In this document: positions 55,120-64,000 of the stretch, in pieces
Position numbering within the stretch: position 1 is the first letter of the stretch
How the letters are laid out: every line of letters begins with the position of its first letter
DNA from: an uncultured Verrucomicrobiota bacterium
GTDB lineage: Bacteria; Verrucomicrobiota; Verrucomicrobiia; Methylacidiphilales; UBA1321
Direction: 5' to 3'
DNA: 64,000 nucleotides
Assembly (NCBI GenBank): GCA_903863295.1
Contig: CAIPBM010000164.1
Span: forward strand, 1 to 64,000
Made by a program: the position numbers and the translations under genes
The notes under the pieces: model-generated
Databases searched by the model: none
What the model was told of the DNA's origin: nothing
Seen by the model: the letters and a program-made list of their open reading frames with translations, nothing else

Positions 55120-55164
55120 GGGTTGCGGGGGCAGGATTTGAACCTGCGGCCTTCAGGTTATGAG
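55120..55164 (-). other. Attachment site: 3' fragment of initiator tRNA-fMet
   Basis: On the minus strand this 45-bp stretch holds the 3' part of tRNA-fMet: anticodon loop with CAT, anticodon-stem half CCTGA, T arm GCAGG-TTCAAAT-CCTGC and acceptor strand CCCCGCA with discriminator A. There is no 5' half: beyond 55164 the sequence no longer pairs. It marks the element boundary (att); the integrase starts 59 bp away. Confidence 0.85.
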
Positions 55165-55222: not shown

Positions 55223-56449
55223 ATGGCTACGAACCTGAAAAAGAAGCCCGTCGCGGGACTCCCTAACGGGGTCGGAATTGGTAAGATTGTTATCAAGGAA
55301 GTGCCCTATTGGCGAGTTCGTTTGGGCAAACGGTTCACCGGCGGAGATGTTCAGATCAAACATTTCTCGGATCTGGCTGATGCGCGTAAATGGATCTTTG
55401 GCGATGATGCCGAATCAAAAAAATCTCCATTGGCTTTGCCCACGCTTGGAGTGCTCAAGCTGAAAAAGAACTTTGGGAACGAAGCTTTTTCGCTCAGCCA
55501 CCAACAACTGGTTCAAGCACAGGACGCCTTTCGTCGTCTTCCCGCCAACGTCTCGCTCACGCAGGTTATGGACGATTGGCTCCAACGGCGGGCACCAGCC
55601 GGAGGCGTCAAAACTTTGCAGGAGGTTGCGAAGGAATTCATCATTTCTCGCCGCACGATTGGGGTGCGACCCAGAACTCTTGTCCAATATGAATCGTACC
55701 TTCGCACGATCAACGAGGAATTCGGTGAAACGCCCGTCTCCGACATTGAACGAGCCAGCATTGAAGATTGGCTTTCTGAAAGCGAGTGGGCTGCCCGCAG
55801 CCGCAAGAACTACCTGGTAACATTGACCACCCTGATTAACTTCGCGATGGACCGCGACTACTGCTCCGGTAACCCAGCATCTCGAATCGAAAGACCGATT
55901 TTGGACGACAGCGCTCCCGGCATTCTGACCGTGAAGGAAGCTGAAGCGTTGCTCCAAACCGCCCTTAAGGGAGTTCCTGAAAAACTCGATCCAAAGCCCC
56001 AGATGGTCGCAGGAATTGCCATCGGTCTATTCGCGGGTTTGCGCCGTAGCGAAATCTGCGCGCTGGACTGGTCAGAGGTAAGCCTAGATGAGCGTTACAT
56101 CGAAGTTAAGGCGGCGAAGGCCAAGACGCGCCAGCGCCGTCTTGTTACCATCGCTGACAACCTCGCCGAATGGCTTAAGCCCCGCGTTAAAGTTGAGGGC
56201 CGCGTCGCCGTGTCTGCTAATCAGGATGTCTTCGGTGAACATCTGCGGGAGATCGCCCAGGCAGCAGGAATCACTCAATGGCCGCACAACGCCATGCGTC
56301 ATTCGTTTGGGTCTTATTTCTATGCGAAGACTAAGGAAGAAAATCGAACAGCCGCCGAGATGGGGAACTCTCCTGCGGTCGTCTTCAAACATTATCGCGC
56401 CCTGGTACGCAATGGCGACGAACACAAATACTGGAAGATAAATCCTTAA
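55223..56449 (+). CDS. int: Tyrosine recombinase/integrase
   Basis: The 408-residue integrase has an N-terminal SAM-like region (SRRTIGVRPRTLVQYESYLRTIN) and a catalytic domain with Arg274 (AGLRRSEICALDW), the second Arg359 in HNAMRHSFGSY and the nucleophile Tyr391 in FKHYRAL. The HxxR motif is shifted (the first residue of HxxR aligns with N356). It catalyses site-specific integration and excision of the element at the adjacent tRNA-fMet. It reads away from the att site. Confidence 0.93.
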   Translation: MATNLKKKPVAGLPNGVGIGKIVIKEVPYWRVRLGKRFTGGDVQIKHFSDLADARKWIFGDDAESKKSPLALPTLGVLKLKKNFGNEAFSLSHQQLVQAQDAFRRLPANVSLTQVMDDWLQRRAPAGGVKTLQEVAKEFIISRRTIGVRPRTLVQYESYLRTINEEFGETPVSDIERASIEDWLSESEWAARSRKNYLVTLTTLINFAMDRDYCSGNPASRIERPILDDSAPGILTVKEAEALLQTALKGVPEKLDPKPQMVAGIAIGLFAGLRRSEICALDWSEVSLDERYIEVKAAKAKTRQRRLVTIADNLAEWLKPRVKVEGRVAVSANQDVFGEHLREIAQAAGITQWPHNAMRHSFGSYFYAKTKEENRTAAEMGNSPAVVFKHYRALVRNGDEHKYWKINP

Positions 56450-56504: not shown

Positions 56505-56897
56505 TCAGGGAACTCCCTTCACGGGCTGCTCAACGCTTATTTCGATTCGAGTGATCCACGGAGTTGCTTGATTCATCTGAGCGGGACAAGTGCGAATGAG
56601 TTTGAGCCTTCCTTCATCCATGGCATCGATGAGTTTGCCCAAGCCTCGTCCTTGAACCTTTACCACCTGCTTGCCCAAATGGATTTCAACCTCCTCAGTC
56701 TCGTCGGTCTTTCGGCACAGCCAGCGGGAAAGACTGCTGTAGGCGAATGCGTGCGTCTCCTGCTTCCCGTTTTGGGAGGGCAACTCAACCCTGAACATGG
56801 AGAGCGATTTCATGTCAGGGACGACGCTGCCCCATAAGCCGGACCAGGGATCACGCAAAGGCGATTCGCCATCGGAAGAAGGGCGGGTTTTGAGCAT
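56505..56897 (-). CDS. Unknown 130-residue protein downstream of the relaxase
   Basis: The product has a basic N-terminus, a middle strand-rich region (SMFRVELPSQNGKQETHAFAYSSLSRWL, VEIHLGKQVVKVQGRGLGKLIDAM) and a C-terminus with one cysteine. It starts 5 bp after the relaxase stop in the same direction, so it belongs to the relaxase operon. I do not recognise a family. A plus-strand frame covers the same bases but lacks such context. Confidence 0.6.
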   Translation of the reverse strand: MLKTRPSSDGESPLRDPWSGLWGSVVPDMKSLSMFRVELPSQNGKQETHAFAYSSLSRWLCRKTDETEEVEIHLGKQVVKVQGRGLGKLIDAMDEGRLKLIRTCPAQMNQATPWITRIEISVEQPVKGVP

Positions 56898-56902
56898 TAT
56901 GG

Positions 56903-59560
56903 TTAGACCTTTATGCCGGTGCGCTGATCGGGCGTTTGTTGGAACCAGAGATTTATTTCCGGGTCCTCCGCCACGACAGGCGCAATTTTCTCGGGTTTGA
57001 CGGAGGGCAATTCCATCGCGAGCATTCGTTCCGCAGGAGTGGCCATTGCGGCAAAAGCTGCTTTTTTGTCGGTCGTGAAAATAGTCTGACTCAGCCGAAA
57101 GCGAGAATTGCTCACGTAGGCTTGCCTCAGATTGGCGGCTTTCATGCCTTCATCTCCGAGGATCAGGAAACCATGATCGACCGTCTTGCCCTGAGCCGCA
57201 TGGGACGTGCTGGCATAGCCGTAAGTGAACTGGCGAAAATAGGCGGGCAGTTGCCGCCCATCTTTCAATTTAATGGCGCCTGTTTCATCCCAAGAGGCGA
57301 CTTCCACAATGTCACCATTCTTCACCTTGGCCTCTTTGCAATTCGATTGGATGAGGAGGCGCTCGCCCGCCATCAGCGTCATTTCGCGGGACACGCCGAC
57401 ATCAAAACTATCACTCGATCTTGGGTCGAAGGCAACGGGCGAGCCATCGGTGCGTTGCACGGAAAGCGTCTTCCCTTCCTTGGCGATCACCTTCACTGCC
57501 TCGTGCTTGGCGAAAGGTCCCACGGCCCGGTGGAACATGAGAACGTCGCCCGGCTGATAGGTTTCGACCTGGCTGCGCAATTCCCGTGTAAGTTGAAGCG
57601 ACGAAAGCGTGGTACATGAAACTTCCTCACCGTGCAGCGCGTTGGTTTCCTTAAGGCGCTGGCGTACCTCTCGCGTGAAAGCATGAACTTCCGACCAGAC
57701 CGGAGAGATGGCGACGCGGGATGTACCAGCCGTGACCTGTGCGGTATAGGCCTCCGCAGCTTTTTCCAGCAGAGCGCGGAAATCTTTGTCCTCGTGGACG
57801 GCCCCGAGCCGATCCAATTGGCCGAACGCCTGATAGGCCTCGCCTTGAGCCAAGAGAGCGACGGCCTTGCGATACTCGGGATCTTGCTGGCGACGAATCT
57901 GCATCAGGCCGGCCACGGGCACCTGAGAGAACTTTTGCAGTGCGCGGAGCGCATCCCCGGCCTCGACCGAGGCGTGTTGTTTGATGTCACCCACAAGGAG
58001 CATTCGACAGCCCTGCTGTTGGGCGACGACGCATAAATCGTGCATTTGCTTTGTGGAGATCATCCCGGCCTCATCGACGATCAGGACGCGACCTTTGAGA
58101 CGTTGCTGAAGATCGGCGTTCACCAAGAGCTGTTGAAGCGTCTCCGCTTGAGCAGTCAATTCCTGGCGGAGAACATCGGTTGCGCCCGAGGACGGAGCGC
58201 AGGCGAAAACGAGGGAGCCTTGCGCCTCGATTCCCTTGATGATGGCCCGCAGCGAAGTCGTTTTGCCCGTTCCAGCATCACCCTGAAGGATAGATAGCCG
58301 GTCCTTCGAGGCTAAAATGGATTGGACGGCAGCCCGTTGGTCATCACCGAGAGACGTTTGGAGATTGGAAGCGTTCCCCAGCGCCGCGAATTGGTCGCGG
58401 CCCTGAAAAGCCCAGGAGACGTATGCCATTTCCATGTGTTTTGCCTGTTTCGAGGTGACTTGGTTTTCGTGGCGTAAAAGTGTGCCGCTCTCTATTTTCA
58501 GGCTTATTTCGTGGCGTAGCTGTTCGAGTGAGACGCGCCCGCGACCAGCGATTAACGCTTCCCGCAGAAGCAGACGTTCATCCACTACAGACGTCCGCTC
58601 GAAGTGATGTTCCGAGGCCGAAGTCACGGCCTCTCCCTTCGATATAAGCTCCATCCTCCTTATGCCCTTGGCCTGAGCGATCACCTTTTCCATGGATGGC
58701 AGGTGCTTCCGGCTCTCCTCACGCCAATTGGTCCTGAGCATGTCGGCATCGACGTGCTTCTTGCCCGCACGGGTGCGAACGGCAATCGACTGAAGACGGT
58801 CTTGATTGCGGGTCTTTTCTGCTATCGCAACGCGCTCGATTTCCCCGCGGCGTTTGCTGAACATTTCGCGACATTCAGGCGGAAAACCATGGATGTTGAA
58901 TCCGATGGAGCGGCTCCGTTCCAGGACGTAACCGGCCTCGATCATTTTTTCGGCCAGTTTGTTGTAACTGACTTCCCGGAAGAACGATTCGTAACGGTAA
59001 TAACCAGAGGGTTGAATGCCCTTCCACCGCTTTTCCACCCCGTCATAGGTGGCGTTCATGATGCAGACATGGGTATGAAGTTGAGGATCAAGTGCGCGGC
59101 TAGTATCATGTGTGACGACGCCCGCGATCATGTTGGCCGTGATTCTGTCATTTTGAGCGCCACGCTTCCGAACCCGCGTTGCCGTGACTTGTTCAATTTC
59201 GCTGAGCGTTTCTTTAACGGCGTCTTTCCACCAGCCCTCAATCCGCTTATCTCCACCAACGAGAAATGCGACAGAGACATCCTTCGGAACGGAAATCTGC
59301 CCAAAATAGCAAACCCGGCGTTTGGCACCTTTGTCGCGCATAGTCAGCTTTTCATTGGTGATTGGATGCTTTCCAGCGCAGAGACGGGCAAAATGGGTTT
59401 CATTGACGACACCGGAAAGTCCAAGTTTCTTGGCTCCTTCACCATGCCAAGTCATTTCCACCTGCCCCTTTTCCGTCAGATAATCCTGCTTGGCCATGTG
59501 GACGGAGAAATACTGCAAGGCCCCGGAAACACGGAGACACGGCTTATCGAAACGCATCAT
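56903..59560 (-). CDS. MobF/TrwC-type conjugative relaxase-helicase
   Basis: From ATG 59560 the product is 885 residues. The relaxase domain has catalytic tyrosines near 17 and 27 (YFSVHMAKQDY) and the three-histidine metal motif HDTSRALDPQLHTH (His151, His162, His164). The C-terminal half is a superfamily I helicase with Walker A GDAGTGKTTS, motif II LIVDEAGM and GYASTSHAAQGKT. It nicks oriT and unwinds DNA for transfer. The start codon choice is between three close codons (TTG, ATG, ATG). Confidence 0.93.
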   Translation of the reverse strand: MMRFDKPCLRVSGALQYFSVHMAKQDYLTEKGQVEMTWHGEGAKKLGLSGVVNETHFARLCAGKHPITNEKLTMRDKGAKRRVCYFGQISVPKDVSVAFLVGGDKRIEGWWKDAVKETLSEIEQVTATRVRKRGAQNDRITANMIAGVVTHDTSRALDPQLHTHVCIMNATYDGVEKRWKGIQPSGYYRYESFFREVSYNKLAEKMIEAGYVLERSRSIGFNIHGFPPECREMFSKRRGEIERVAIAEKTRNQDRLQSIAVRTRAGKKHVDADMLRTNWREESRKHLPSMEKVIAQAKGIRRMELISKGEAVTSASEHHFERTSVVDERLLLREALIAGRGRVSLEQLRHEISLKIESGTLLRHENQVTSKQAKHMEMAYVSWAFQGRDQFAALGNASNLQTSLGDDQRAAVQSILASKDRLSILQGDAGTGKTTSLRAIIKGIEAQGSLVFACAPSSGATDVLRQELTAQAETLQQLLVNADLQQRLKGRVLIVDEAGMISTKQMHDLCVVAQQQGCRMLLVGDIKQHASVEAGDALRALQKFSQVPVAGLMQIRRQQDPEYRKAVALLAQGEAYQAFGQLDRLGAVHEDKDFRALLEKAAEAYTAQVTAGTSRVAISPVWSEVHAFTREVRQRLKETNALHGEEVSCTTLSSLQLTRELRSQVETYQPGDVLMFHRAVGPFAKHEAVKVIAKEGKTLSVQRTDGSPVAFDPRSSDSFDVGVSREMTLMAGERLLIQSNCKEAKVKNGDIVEVASWDETGAIKLKDGRQLPAYFRQFTYGYASTSHAAQGKTVDHGFLILGDEGMKAANLRQAYVSNSRFRLSQTIFTTDKKAAFAAMATPAERMLAMELPSVKPEKIAPVVAEDPEINLWFQQTPDQRTGIKV

Positions 59561-59589
59561 GACCAATAAGACACGAGCCGCCGCACTTT

Positions 59590-61279
59590 CGTCTTAGGCT
59601 ACTTTGTAGCCATCTCACAAAAAGCATTATCAAACCAACGCGCTCAGAGGTAAGGTCAGCCAATGCCAGAACCAAAAACAATGCGCGGCATCTGGTGGTT
59701 TCCCGAAGCTCCAGACAAGCGTTACGTTGGAGACCTGATTAATGCTCCCGGTCGTTTGCTCAAATTAAAGCTCATAGTTGAGGGCGACCGAAGTCACCTC
59801 GAACAAGAACATCCGGTTATTTTTGGAATAGGCGATGGTGGGGCCGACCTGACTCTCCACCGCCTTTCTCCCAATGGATTTTCATCCAACATGCGATTTA
59901 GTGAGATGGACTTTTCCGCAGGCAAACTGTGGGAAGGAGCCCATTTGCCCGATCCAACAAAAACGCTTTTTAAGGAGGTACAGTTTCACGTCCAATACCT
60001 CCGGGAGTGGTTCGGCATAACAGGCTTCAAACCTCCTACCCATAAGAAGGGCGCGATTACTCTCAAATATTCTCGACCCAAGAGTAGAACCTTCTCCTTG
60101 TCGTCTGGCTGGGAAGTGTCTTTCAACCCTGAAACAAGAAGCTCCCATGGAGAGGGTCAACAGAGCATCAATGAGGACGTTCAGTGGATAATTAAGCGCA
60201 ACACTACGTTCACTTTTGAAGAGGCATTGTCTGTAACTAATGCGCTTCAACGGCTCATTCACTTCGCGTGCCTAAAGCGCATCAAGCCAACCAAGGCCCT
60301 TGCTGAGCAGGGAGGGGATTTAGGAGAAACCGATGACCCTAGTTTTCCAAACTTAATTTCCGTGTCAGGAGCGTTTTGCTACCCCGAATCTGAGAAAAAT
60401 CTTACTTCCCATGATTTTATCTATTCGTTTGGCAATTTGGAGAGTCGTTTTCCCGCTCTATTTCAGTCTTGGCTGAGATTTTGCGATAAATTCCGTGAGT
60501 CTCTTTCCTGCTACGACAACACGGTGTATTTCGATCTCAATCCGTCATTAGAATTGGTCGCTCTCACCCAGGCTCTTGAGTCATATCATGCGGAAAAGGT
60601 AGGCGGCCGAAAAAGGATTCACTTTCAAAAGCGTATTCTAAGCCTACTTCGTAAACATCATAAAAAGGCTCCGTGGGCGTTCAAAAAACCTCTTACAAAG
60701 CTGTCACTCGTCATTCGCGACAATCGAAACTTTTACACCCATCACGATCCTGAAAACAAGAAGGCCGGAAGGGTGAAGAGTGGAACAGACCTGGCATGGC
60801 TTAACGAATCTTTAACGGTATTGATGCGCTTATGTGTCCTATCTGAATTAGGGATTACGTCGGACAACGGCAATGTCCTGCGTAGACATTTTCCAGAGCG
60901 CATTGTGAGTACAGGTTAAATTTGTTGGTCATTTTCGGAATCCATAGGGTGAGCGACATATCTGAGTTCAAGGTATTGAAGGCAGGACACGCTACCCCTA
61001 AAGTTTTTAGGCAGAAAGTGGCCTGCAGTGACATAAGATGACATGCGGTGGCATTCGCACCCGCACGCTTACGCGCGTTAGCGACAAGTCCTCATCAGCC
61101 GTAAAGGCACTGCGGGCATGCAACGGCTTGCGTCAACGCTTCTCAAAGCACAACCCCACTCCCCAAGCCCTGTTGAGCGGGTTGAAACGCTCGTTACCTC
61201 TACCTTGGTCAGGCGCCGTTCAGCCGATTTGTGGGACTAATGGCCAGTTGTGAAAATGGCTACAAAGTAGCCTAAGACG
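59590..61279. repeat. 24-bp perfect inverted repeats enclosing the ApeA-like gene
   Basis: Arms 59590-59613 and 61256-61279 are exact reverse complements, with imperfect extension inward (TCACAA on both sides). They bracket 1642 bp that contain the ApeA-like gene and about 340 bp of non-coding sequence. The left arm lies just upstream of the relaxase start, the right arm just upstream of the traK-like gene. They may be transposon ends or duplicated regulatory sites. Confidence 0.75.
59663..60919 (+). CDS. ApeA-like anti-phage protein with C-terminal HEPN domain
   Basis: The 418-residue protein has an N-terminal beta-rich region like ApeA (RGIWWFPEAPDKRYVGDLI) and a C-terminal helical HEPN domain with the RX4-6H nuclease motif RNFYTHH (Arg355, His360), followed by ESLTVLMRLCVLSELG. 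In this family the HEPN domain is an RNase that halts phage infection by killing the cell. It sits between the relaxase and the traK-like gene, flanked by inverted repeats. Its identity as ApeA is by family resemblance. Confidence 0.8.
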   Translation: MPEPKTMRGIWWFPEAPDKRYVGDLINAPGRLLKLKLIVEGDRSHLEQEHPVIFGIGDGGADLTLHRLSPNGFSSNMRFSEMDFSAGKLWEGAHLPDPTKTLFKEVQFHVQYLREWFGITGFKPPTHKKGAITLKYSRPKSRTFSLSSGWEVSFNPETRSSHGEGQQSINEDVQWIIKRNTTFTFEEALSVTNALQRLIHFACLKRIKPTKALAEQGGDLGETDDPSFPNLISVSGAFCYPESEKNLTSHDFIYSFGNLESRFPALFQSWLRFCDKFRESLSCYDNTVYFDLNPSLELVALTQALESYHAEKVGGRKRIHFQKRILSLLRKHHKKAPWAFKKPLTKLSLVIRDNRNFYTHHDPENKKAGRVKSGTDLAWLNESLTVLMRLCVLSELGITSDNGNVLRRHFPERIVSTG

Positions 61280-61307: not shown

Positions 61308-61697
61308 ATGAGTCAAAGTCTGACCAGTTCTGATCGCCAGCTTGAGCACACACTCAGTCAGGCCATGCAGCAATTTCAGCCAGCAGCTAAACAAACTGCC
61401 ATACTGGAACGTTTCAAAGCCATCGTCCTCGGATTGAAGGCGAAAGGCGCGACGTGTCTGGAAATCAAAACCTTCCTCGACCAGCACGGAGTGCGTGTCG
61501 CTGAAAGCGCCATTTTTCGTTTCTGTCGTAAGCACCAGGTCGAAGTAGCCCGCATGCGCAACAACGGGGCCGCCGAAGCTGCGGCTACATCCGAGCAGTC
61601 CATCGTCCCCGGTTCCGGCAGCACAGCCGTTTCAACCAACCCTAACCCCTCGACCCCACAGGCTCCCAAGATGCGGAGCCTGCGCGGGTCAGTCTAA
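61308..61697 (+). CDS. TraK-like small DNA-binding protein (putative)
   Basis: The 129-residue basic protein has a helical core (ILERFKAIVLGLKAKGATCLEIKTFLDQHGVRVAESAIFRFCRKHQVEVARM) with a helix-turn-helix look and a disordered serine/threonine-rich tail. It is first in a run with traL- and traM-like genes, the position of the oriT-binding TraK in IncP-type plasmids. I infer a role in oriT binding; sequence similarity is not certain. Confidence 0.6.
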   Translation: MSQSLTSSDRQLEHTLSQAMQQFQPAAKQTAILERFKAIVLGLKAKGATCLEIKTFLDQHGVRVAESAIFRFCRKHQVEVARMRNNGAAEAAATSEQSIVPGSGSTAVSTNPNPSTPQAPKMRSLRGSV

Positions 61698-61700
61698 ATT

Positions 61701-62417
61701 ATGCAAAACCTCGACACATCCCCTCACAACAAACGCATCGTCTTTGTCACCGGCGACAAAGGCGGCGTCGGCAAGAGCTTTACCTCTCGTGCCATCGTTC
61801 AGTATTACCTCGACCTCAACCAACCGTTCCGGGCCTTCGACATCGATCCGGTCAATCCGAACTTGGAACAGTTTTATCCCGAAATCACCACTCAGCTCGA
61901 TATTCAGAAACCGGGTGCCTTGGATCAAATTCGCAACGAGATCGAAACGCAGCCGCTTTTGCTCGTTGATTGTGCAGCCCGTTCCCTATGGGAGCTGGAC
62001 GCATGGTTTAAAGACCTTGGCTTGATCCAGGAGCGCGGCCAATTGCGCCTTTCATTCACCTTCGTCTTTGTCATCACTCCAGACAAAAGCTGCACGGTAA
62101 TTATGAACGATACCCTCCAACGATTCGGCAAGGAGGCTGACTATCTCGTGGTCAAAAACTACGGCAAGGGAAAGAACTTTTCCATTTACGAGGAATCCAA
62201 GCTTCGCACTTCCCTGCTGAAGCAATATCAGGGACAGGAGATCGCCTTACCATCTCTCCTCGAACGCACGGTGGTTCACCTTGATTCCCACGACATCGGC
62301 TTTGGTGATGCCATGAAGCATCCCGACGTGACGGTGGCCGACCGTTCCAGAGTACGCGGATTCTTGGAACAGAGTTACGCACAGCTCAACGCCGTTAAAA
62401 GCCTTCTAATCCCCTAA
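61701..62417 (+). CDS. TraL-like P-loop ATPase
   Basis: The 238-residue protein has a deviant Walker A (VTGDKGGVGKSFTSRA) of the ParA/MinD family and a Walker B-like segment (PLLLVDCAARSL). It follows the traK-like gene by 3 bp. TraL-type ATPases accompany relaxosome genes in IncP conjugation and related elements. ParA-type partition is an alternative, but no parB follows. Confidence 0.75.
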   Translation: MQNLDTSPHNKRIVFVTGDKGGVGKSFTSRAIVQYYLDLNQPFRAFDIDPVNPNLEQFYPEITTQLDIQKPGALDQIRNEIETQPLLLVDCAARSLWELDAWFKDLGLIQERGQLRLSFTFVFVITPDKSCTVIMNDTLQRFGKEADYLVVKNYGKGKNFSIYEESKLRTSLLKQYQGQEIALPSLLERTVVHLDSHDIGFGDAMKHPDVTVADRSRVRGFLEQSYAQLNAVKSLLIP

Positions 62418-62420
62418 CCT

Positions 62421-62939
62421 ATGACTGAACAAATCGAACTCAGACCACCCGAGCAAGTCTTCAATGGTGACGATTTACCGGATGATTTAAAATGGCTAAT
62501 GACGGCCTTCAATCTCCCCAAAAGTGACCCAGCAGTGGTCCTCATGGCATGGCATTGGAAGCGCACCGCAAACACCCACGACATTATTAAGGTGGGGCAG
62601 ATGGAACTGATAGCCGCACTAGAAAGCCGGATCAACAAAGTCAAAGGCTTTGCCGAGACGATCCAACAGGTGGATGCCAACCTCAGCAATGTGAACCACG
62701 CACTGGCCCAGGAGCACTTGGGCCTAAAAAACAAAATCGAAACGGAATTGAAACAGCCACTTGCCGAAAGCCTAGGAAACGCTGTTCAGCTTGCAGCAAC
62801 ACTTGAAACCCTCCTGAAGACGGTTCAGACGAGCGGGGCAGAATATAACCGCAAACGATGGAGAGCAGCCTATTGGTCAGGCTGGGCTTCCGGTGTTCTT
62901 ATCATGGGGTGCCTATGCTGGCTTTTATTTGCGCATTAG
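62421..62939 (+). CDS. TraM-like membrane-anchored conjugation protein
   Basis: The 172-residue protein has a helical coiled-coil region (KVGQMELIAALESRINKVKGFAETIQQVDANL) and a C-terminal membrane helix (WSGWASGVLIMGCLCWLLFAH). It fits the place of TraM after TraL. It starts 3 bp after the traL-like stop and overlaps the coupling protein gene by 25 bp. Confidence 0.65.
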   Translation: MTEQIELRPPEQVFNGDDLPDDLKWLMTAFNLPKSDPAVVLMAWHWKRTANTHDIIKVGQMELIAALESRINKVKGFAETIQQVDANLSNVNHALAQEHLGLKNKIETELKQPLAESLGNAVQLAATLETLLKTVQTSGAEYNRKRWRAAYWSGWASGVLIMGCLCWLLFAH

Positions 62940-64000
62940 GTTGCGGGGCTCTCACGTTCGCTGCGACTTGGCTCACCCATTCGTTCAACCCGGCGACTGT
63001 GCTGTTTGGCTTTAGTGCCGGATGGTTCGTTTATCAAGGCTTTTTGCCCGATAAAAAGAAAGTGGATTACGTTCTGGAATTGGGAGGAGTTCGATGGAAT
63101 GAAGAAGACTTTTGTCGTGGTTGGGAAATCGATGGACGAACCGGTTCCGGCAAAACAGCCAGCGCGGTTGTCCCGATTATCCATGCCTTGAAAAAGAACC
63201 GACCCGAAATCGGCATTCTGGCCCTCGACACGAAAGGAGACCTGAGCGAACCGCTCACCGCTATCGCAAGAGACCTCCATTGTACGCAGGACTTAGTCCA
63301 AATCGAAGTCAGGCCAGATGATGCGCCTCTCGACTGGAAGCCTCCCTACACCATGAATTTTCTTGCCGATGATTCCATTCCGTTTTCAACCTACGCGAAA
63401 ATCCTTGTCGATGTTGCGACGGCGGCTGGGCAGAAGGGAGGTCAGGCTTTTTTCAAGAATGCGGCCCAATCAGCCATTCAAAATGGCTTTACGGCTTTAC
63501 GGGTCTTGCGGCATTGCGTCACCATCGACAATTGCTGCAACATCATCAACGATCTTACCCAACTAAAAAGCATTACTGAGCAATTGGTTCAACTGGCAAA
63601 GGCTCAGCCTCAGCATCAGGAATTGACCGATTATTTTGTGGAGTTGCAAAAGCAGCCACCTGAACAGTTGAGCGGTATTCGCTCAACCGTGTTCAACTAT
63701 CTCCAACCATTCACCGCGCCGGACATAGCCGAAGTGTTTTGCCCGATGGACCCGACATTCACCCTAAATGAAATCGACCAGGGTAAATTGATCAGCGTCA
63801 AAATCCCGCAGAAATACCAGGTCGAGAAGAAGTACGTCAGCCTACTCTTGAAGGTCCTGTTCTACCTCCATGCGCTAAGACGGTACGATCTGACCGCAGC
63901 GGATAGACGAAAGAAAAACCTAATCGTTATGGTCCTTGATGAAGCACAAGAAACAGTCCTCGTGAGTGAGGACGGAATCTCCGATTTCAATGTCGTGGAC
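62915..64000 (+). CDS. VirD4/TraD-type conjugative coupling protein, 3' end missing
   Basis: A frame from ATG 62915 stays open to the window end (about 362 codons). It begins with two membrane helices (LAFICALGCGALTFAATWL; ATVLFGFSAGWFVYQGF), then Walker A GRTGSGKT and, near the window end, Walker B LIVMVLDEAQETV. Coupling proteins bring the relaxosome to the type IV secretion channel. The start overlaps the TraM-like gene by 25 bp. The C-terminus is outside the window. Confidence 0.88.
   Translation, partial: MLAFICALGCGALTFAATWLTHSFNPATVLFGFSAGWFVYQGFLPDKKKVDYVLELGGVRWNEEDFCRGWEIDGRTGSGKTASAVVPIIHALKKNRPEIGILALDTKGDLSEPLTAIARDLHCTQDLVQIEVRPDDAPLDWKPPYTMNFLADDSIPFSTYAKILVDVATAAGQKGGQAFFKNAAQSAIQNGFTALRVLRHCVTIDNCCNIINDLTQLKSITEQLVQLAKAQPQHQELTDYFVELQKQPPEQLSGIRSTVFNYLQPFTAPDIAEVFCPMDPTFTLNEIDQGKLISVKIPQKYQVEKKYVSLLLKVLFYLHALRRYDLTAADRRKKNLIVMVLDEAQETVLVSEDGISDFNVVD

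Follow-up and report, generated by a model that had tools for sequence, protein, structure and literature searches.

The two exact 24-bp inverted repeats that flank an apeA-like defence gene in the window, the 64,000-nucleotide stretch of Verrucomicrobiota DNA analyzed here, are very probably one regulatory module present twice. Each copy is a predicted operator plus leader ahead of one of two divergent ICE transfer operons, with oriT between them and the defence gene as later cargo. The copy at arm 1 would serve the leftward relaxase operon and the copy at arm 2 the rightward traKLM-T4CP operon, and a single regulator would bind both, so that the two operons are switched in concert. Judged by its position, the TraK-like protein itself is the leading candidate for this regulator; its single-sequence structure prediction is weak (pLDDT 63, too low for fold assignment).

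The arms and the transfer genes of the host ICE

Arm 1 (59590-59613, minus strand) and arm 2 (61256-61279, plus strand) are identical 24-mers, inverted relative to each other, as the initial annotation had reported. With up to 3 mismatches allowed, the window contains these two copies and no others (0 expected from 100 shuffles), and the 22-mer core again has just these two copies in the 4.1-Mb genome at the same tolerance. The 15-bp core, GGCTACAAAGTAGCC, is palindromic by itself (GGCTAC-AAA-GTAGCC), so the orientation of the arms is set only by the flanking bases. Similarity between the arms extends to 77% over 47 bp, reaching the start regions of the relaxase and traK genes. Arm 1, the predicted operator and leader for the relaxase operon, stops 29 nt short of the relaxase ATG; on its other side, 49 nt away, is the start of apeA, which diverges from that of the relaxase. 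Arm 2, the same predicted module, is separated from the traK ATG by 28 nt. Searches of viral contigs for the arm sequence and of Rfam for the 50- to 64-kb part of the window gave no match.

The genes on either side are those of a conjugation system and stand where they had first been placed. To the left lie a MobF/TrwC relaxase-helicase gene (56903..59566, minus strand; TrwC, 6e-71), the relaxase domain of which matches TrwC/TraI structures (E ~1e-28), and downstream of it a small gene, “mobX” (56505..56897, minus strand), with many relatives by tblastn and no Pfam match. Inspection of start codons suggests that the relaxase begins at ATG 59560 rather than at the listed TTG 59566. To the right, on the plus strand, a traK-like gene (61308..61697), recognized by its position and its relatives, is followed by a traL-like ParA/CbiA ATPase gene (61701..62417; CbiA, 6e-5, slightly below the curated cutoff), a traM-like gene (62421..62939), and the ORF of a coupling protein (T4CP; 62858..64000, running on to contig position 64390; T4SS-DNA_transf, 2e-8). 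The traL- and traM-like genes are conserved among relatives. The TraK-like protein matched no Pfam family, and its name refers to the gene order traK-traL-traM-T4CP with a ParA-like TraL.

These genes belong to a 43.7-kb tRNA-Met ICE. It is bounded by a 45-bp perfect direct repeat, with attL at 55120..55164 (no strand assigned) and attR outside the window at 98835-98879 of contig C164, at the end of a tRNA-Met(CAT) gene. A tyrosine integrase gene (55223..56449, plus strand; Phage_integrase, 2.6e-12) adjoins attL, and the element further contains the relaxase and TrbL/TrbI-like and VirB4-like type IV secretion genes, so that integrase, relaxase, secretion system, and direct att repeats at a tRNA gene are all present. 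The ICE also carries, at 64435-77977 of contig C164, genes for DndB, DndE, DndC-like, and DndD-like proteins and a DndA-like aminotransferase, together with a second DndB-like protein and HATPase, helicase, and PLD-like genes; judged by these genes, this region is a phosphorothioation-type defence island. Further MobF relaxases, two of them close and two distant, were found on other contigs of the same genome (C145, C79, C177, and C153), and several MobF elements thus appear to coexist in it.

A predicted oriT and conserved paired sites around it

The arms enclose more than the defence gene: apeA, a likely oriT, and ~0.34 kb of noncoding DNA lie between them, and apeA is not tightly framed. 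The description of the arms as framing apeA is correct in that the gene is enclosed, but the oriT had been overlooked. We compared relaxases from a search of the phylum and 44 loci taken from genome contigs. In 43 of 50 loci, a common element upstream of the relaxase consists of a CCTAAC-loop-GTTAGG-type hairpin and, after it, GGTGGCGTGT, with the conserved pre-nic sequence GGTRGCGTGT after the hairpin; its usual distance to the relaxase start is 120 to 280 nt (median, 187). The window has its counterpart between apeA and arm 2, at 60987..61011 on the minus strand, where the hairpin CCTAAA-AAC-TTTAGG is followed by GGTAGCGTGT. In MOBF systems, the hairpin is located 5′ of nic (PMC9868005), and GTGT directly precedes nic at most sites (PMC4176350). 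The hairpin and GTGT at 60987-61011 match this layout, and we read this segment as the predicted nic region of oriT; nic would then fall between 60987 and 60986 on the minus strand. Gene order and the nic hairpin agree in placing oriT in the gap from which the relaxase and traKLM operons diverge. The predicted site resembles those of R388 TrwC and F TraI (PMC4176350) in having GT after the hairpin arm and GTGT before nic, with the hairpin on the 5′ side of nic, but the sequence itself differs, and the base after the predicted nic is C or T in this group, while R388 requires a purine (PMC4176350).

Two further matches to the oriT pattern were seen elsewhere. In another genome (G170:C1 1287040), an oriT-like hairpin with GGTGGCGTGT stands in 17 kb of examined sequence that lacks a related relaxase; it could be either a mobilizable element that borrows the same relaxase or a chance match. 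The match in genome G470 looks like chance, since it lies inside large ORFs with no relaxase nearby.

The operator reading draws on sites that persist without apeA. In five relatives that lack the gene (L068, L089, L095, L097, and L115), the site is found on both sides of oriT in the same arrangement, the very observation that the initial annotation had named as evidence against its cassette proposal. In L089, TTCGCTACTAAGTAGTTTT occurs in inverted copies ahead of traK and ahead of the relaxase gene, and the other four are similar; L068 and L115 have a third copy of the palindrome ahead of an extra small gene. This small ORF, located between traK and oriT, is conserved (~114 to 122 aa), has its own predicted operator palindrome, and gave no Pfam match. 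Nine loci, the window among them, have the palindrome CTAC-N3-GTAG near the relaxase, and in every one it stands at −42 to −45 relative to the start of that gene; these nine are mutually related and hence not independent samples. In the 111 kb that lie ahead of the other relaxases, the palindrome occurs once. The loci that carry it cluster on the relaxase tree (none of 500 shuffles was as clustered), though they do not form one clean clade.

A search for the arm in other elements recovered the exact 24-mer as a single copy, without apeA, in each of two genomes of the same genus (L134 and L135), where the relaxase operon that it adjoins is of a second MobF type. The distance from the arm end to the ATG is 28 to 29 nt at both window arms and 28 nt at these two copies, which also share the leader CGTGTC... 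between module and ATG. The palindrome of L136 is preserved through a compensated change (ACTAC...GTAGT). In L135 and L136, a small helix-turn-helix gene, excisionase-like by eye, follows the module at a distance of ~400 nt. Among other relatives, different sequences likewise form paired repeats in 17 of 37 (p<0.05); the remaining 20 of the 37 have no significant paired repeat, in a test in which the traK start was not located in many rows.

The two-sided sites without apeA, the fixed spacing to the ATG, and the compensated palindrome of L136 together argue for a predicted operator and leader, as the alternative of a duplicated regulatory site in the initial annotation would have it; the same site precedes both operons independently of cargo. 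The extra palindrome before the small gene of L068 and L115 and the other paired repeats in relatives lend this further support. Several points count against it: a double-strand scan found no consensus sigma-70 promoter at the arms, the TraK-like model is weak, 20 of the 37 relatives have no significant paired repeat, the nine loci are not independent, and in L134 to L137 (second MobF type, same genus), the module sits on the 3′ side of the relaxase operon and away from the relaxase start.

Such an arrangement has a precedent in RP4, in which divergent traJp and traKp promoters flank oriT, TraK represses both, and TrbA binds at the −35 box of each (PMC7314908); divergent promoters at oriT are common (PMC7314908). 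The RP4/RK2 region and the window are alike in that the relaxase and traKLM operons point away from an oriT located in the middle, with sites paired at both promoters. They differ in relaxase type, which is MobP in RP4/RK2 and MobF here, and in operator sequence, which is unrelated as far as seen; the window, moreover, has a cargo gene between operator and oriT.

Alternative explanations of the arms

The arms might instead be sites of relaxosome architecture, bound on both sides by an accessory protein that shapes or opens oriT, with transcriptional control secondary or absent. Their presence on both flanks of oriT would suit this role, and RP4 TraK bends and binds the oriT region besides acting as a repressor (PMC7314908). 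Yet the sites keep their position relative to start codons (28 to 29 nt; −42 to −45), while their distance to oriT varies across loci from ~80 nt to >1.3 kb, one copy stands ahead of the extra gene in L068 and L115, and single copies occur away from the oriT gap in L134 to L137. We consider an architectural role of this kind improbable.

Far less credible is the proposal of a transposon-like cassette that delivered apeA and has the arms as its terminal inverted repeats, an idea invited by exact inverted 24-bp arms around a gene of foreign composition. It does not survive comparison with the five relatives that have both sites and no apeA or with the single copies in L134 and L135; the arms also enclose oriT, no transposase ORF lies between them, and the repeats beside apeA are 5 bp long and at chance level, with no target duplication. 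A duplicated oriT or relaxase recognition site has even less to recommend it, although the hairpin followed by 7 shared bases recalls the MOBF hairpin 5′ of nic. Both arms lack the MOBF pre-nic motif (GT...GTGT/nic), whose GTGT is expected before nic at most MOBF sites (PMC4176350); a different hairpin, with GGTRGCGTGT, is the one conserved beside the relaxase in the loci described above; and an arm-like palindrome is missing at most relaxases of the family. This reading, too, had been raised at the outset and is best abandoned. Intrinsic terminators were rejected as well: the arms lie 5′ of genes, and a terminator scan was empty there.

The apeA-like gene as probable cargo beside the predicted oriT

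The defence gene had been correctly recognized. It occupies 59663..60919 on the plus strand, between arm 1 and oriT, and its product combines an ApeA N-terminal domain (ApeA_NTD1, 8e-28) with a HEPN domain (HEPN_Apea, 1e-12) that contains the RxxxxH motif as RNFYTH (60725-60742); PADLOC matches were to PDC-S58 and Cas13-ApeA. It thus shares both domains and the motif with the ApeA HEPN defence family, from which it is set apart by its oriT-side location and by the absence of a close homologue in the collections searched. In a search for another copy at an oriT, plasmid, phage, and viral-contig collections contained no close ApeA homologue, and 388 genomes of the phylum yielded a single weak, partial match at 30%. 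A comparison with solved structures returned no match. The gene has 47% GC (GC3, 48%), compared with 50 to 57% for most transfer genes and 47% for the dnd cargo. From composition and position, apeA is most likely a later, low-GC insertion, carried as cargo in the interval that separates the relaxase-side operator from oriT, which is the leading side of the nick.

Other cargo occurs in this gap. L092 has a cpYpsA/SLOG-family gene between oriT and the relaxase operator (PF12694, 1e-54), and group II intron-type reverse transcriptase ORFs were read from the sequences of L097 and L058 in the same place; in L054, a transposase-like stretch was noted by eye upstream of the operator. The gap is empty of inserts in most relatives. 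The inserts in a few of them indicate that the oriT-relaxase gap tolerates cargo, which agrees in part with the suggestion that the arms bound a defence slot, but almost all relatives have no insert at all.

The apeA stop codon is ~67 nt from the inferred nic. By the predicted MOBF polarity, the transferred strand would run from 60987/60986 toward apeA; the gene would be the first to enter the recipient and would have that strand as its template. The orientation reported for anti-defence genes in the leading regions of conjugative plasmids (PMC11541004) agrees with that of apeA. Those genes likewise adjoin oriT and use the transferred strand as template, as apeA would on the inferred leading side; they encode anti-defence proteins, however, whereas ApeA is a defence effector. 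It is conceivable, if unlikely, that the transfer regulator also controls apeA, arm 1 lying between the relaxase and apeA starts, and that early entry and such control produce a burst of HEPN RNase in new recipients that protects the incoming ICE or excludes competing phages or elements. From its domains, apeA probably serves as an ordinary phage-defence RNase.

The regulation proposed here is ordinary in kind, and the position of the cargo is mildly interesting. Reading the arms as paired predicted operators corrects a tempting misreading, that of a defence cassette ending in inverted repeats. For a little-studied group of Verrucomicrobiota MobF ICEs, it also describes the probable core of oriT and a predicted transfer operator that is paired and conserved. 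Cargo, a defence gene included, can become established in the oriT-relaxase gap, which would be the first part to reach recipients. If the transfer operator does govern apeA, the control of conjugation would be linked to phage defence.
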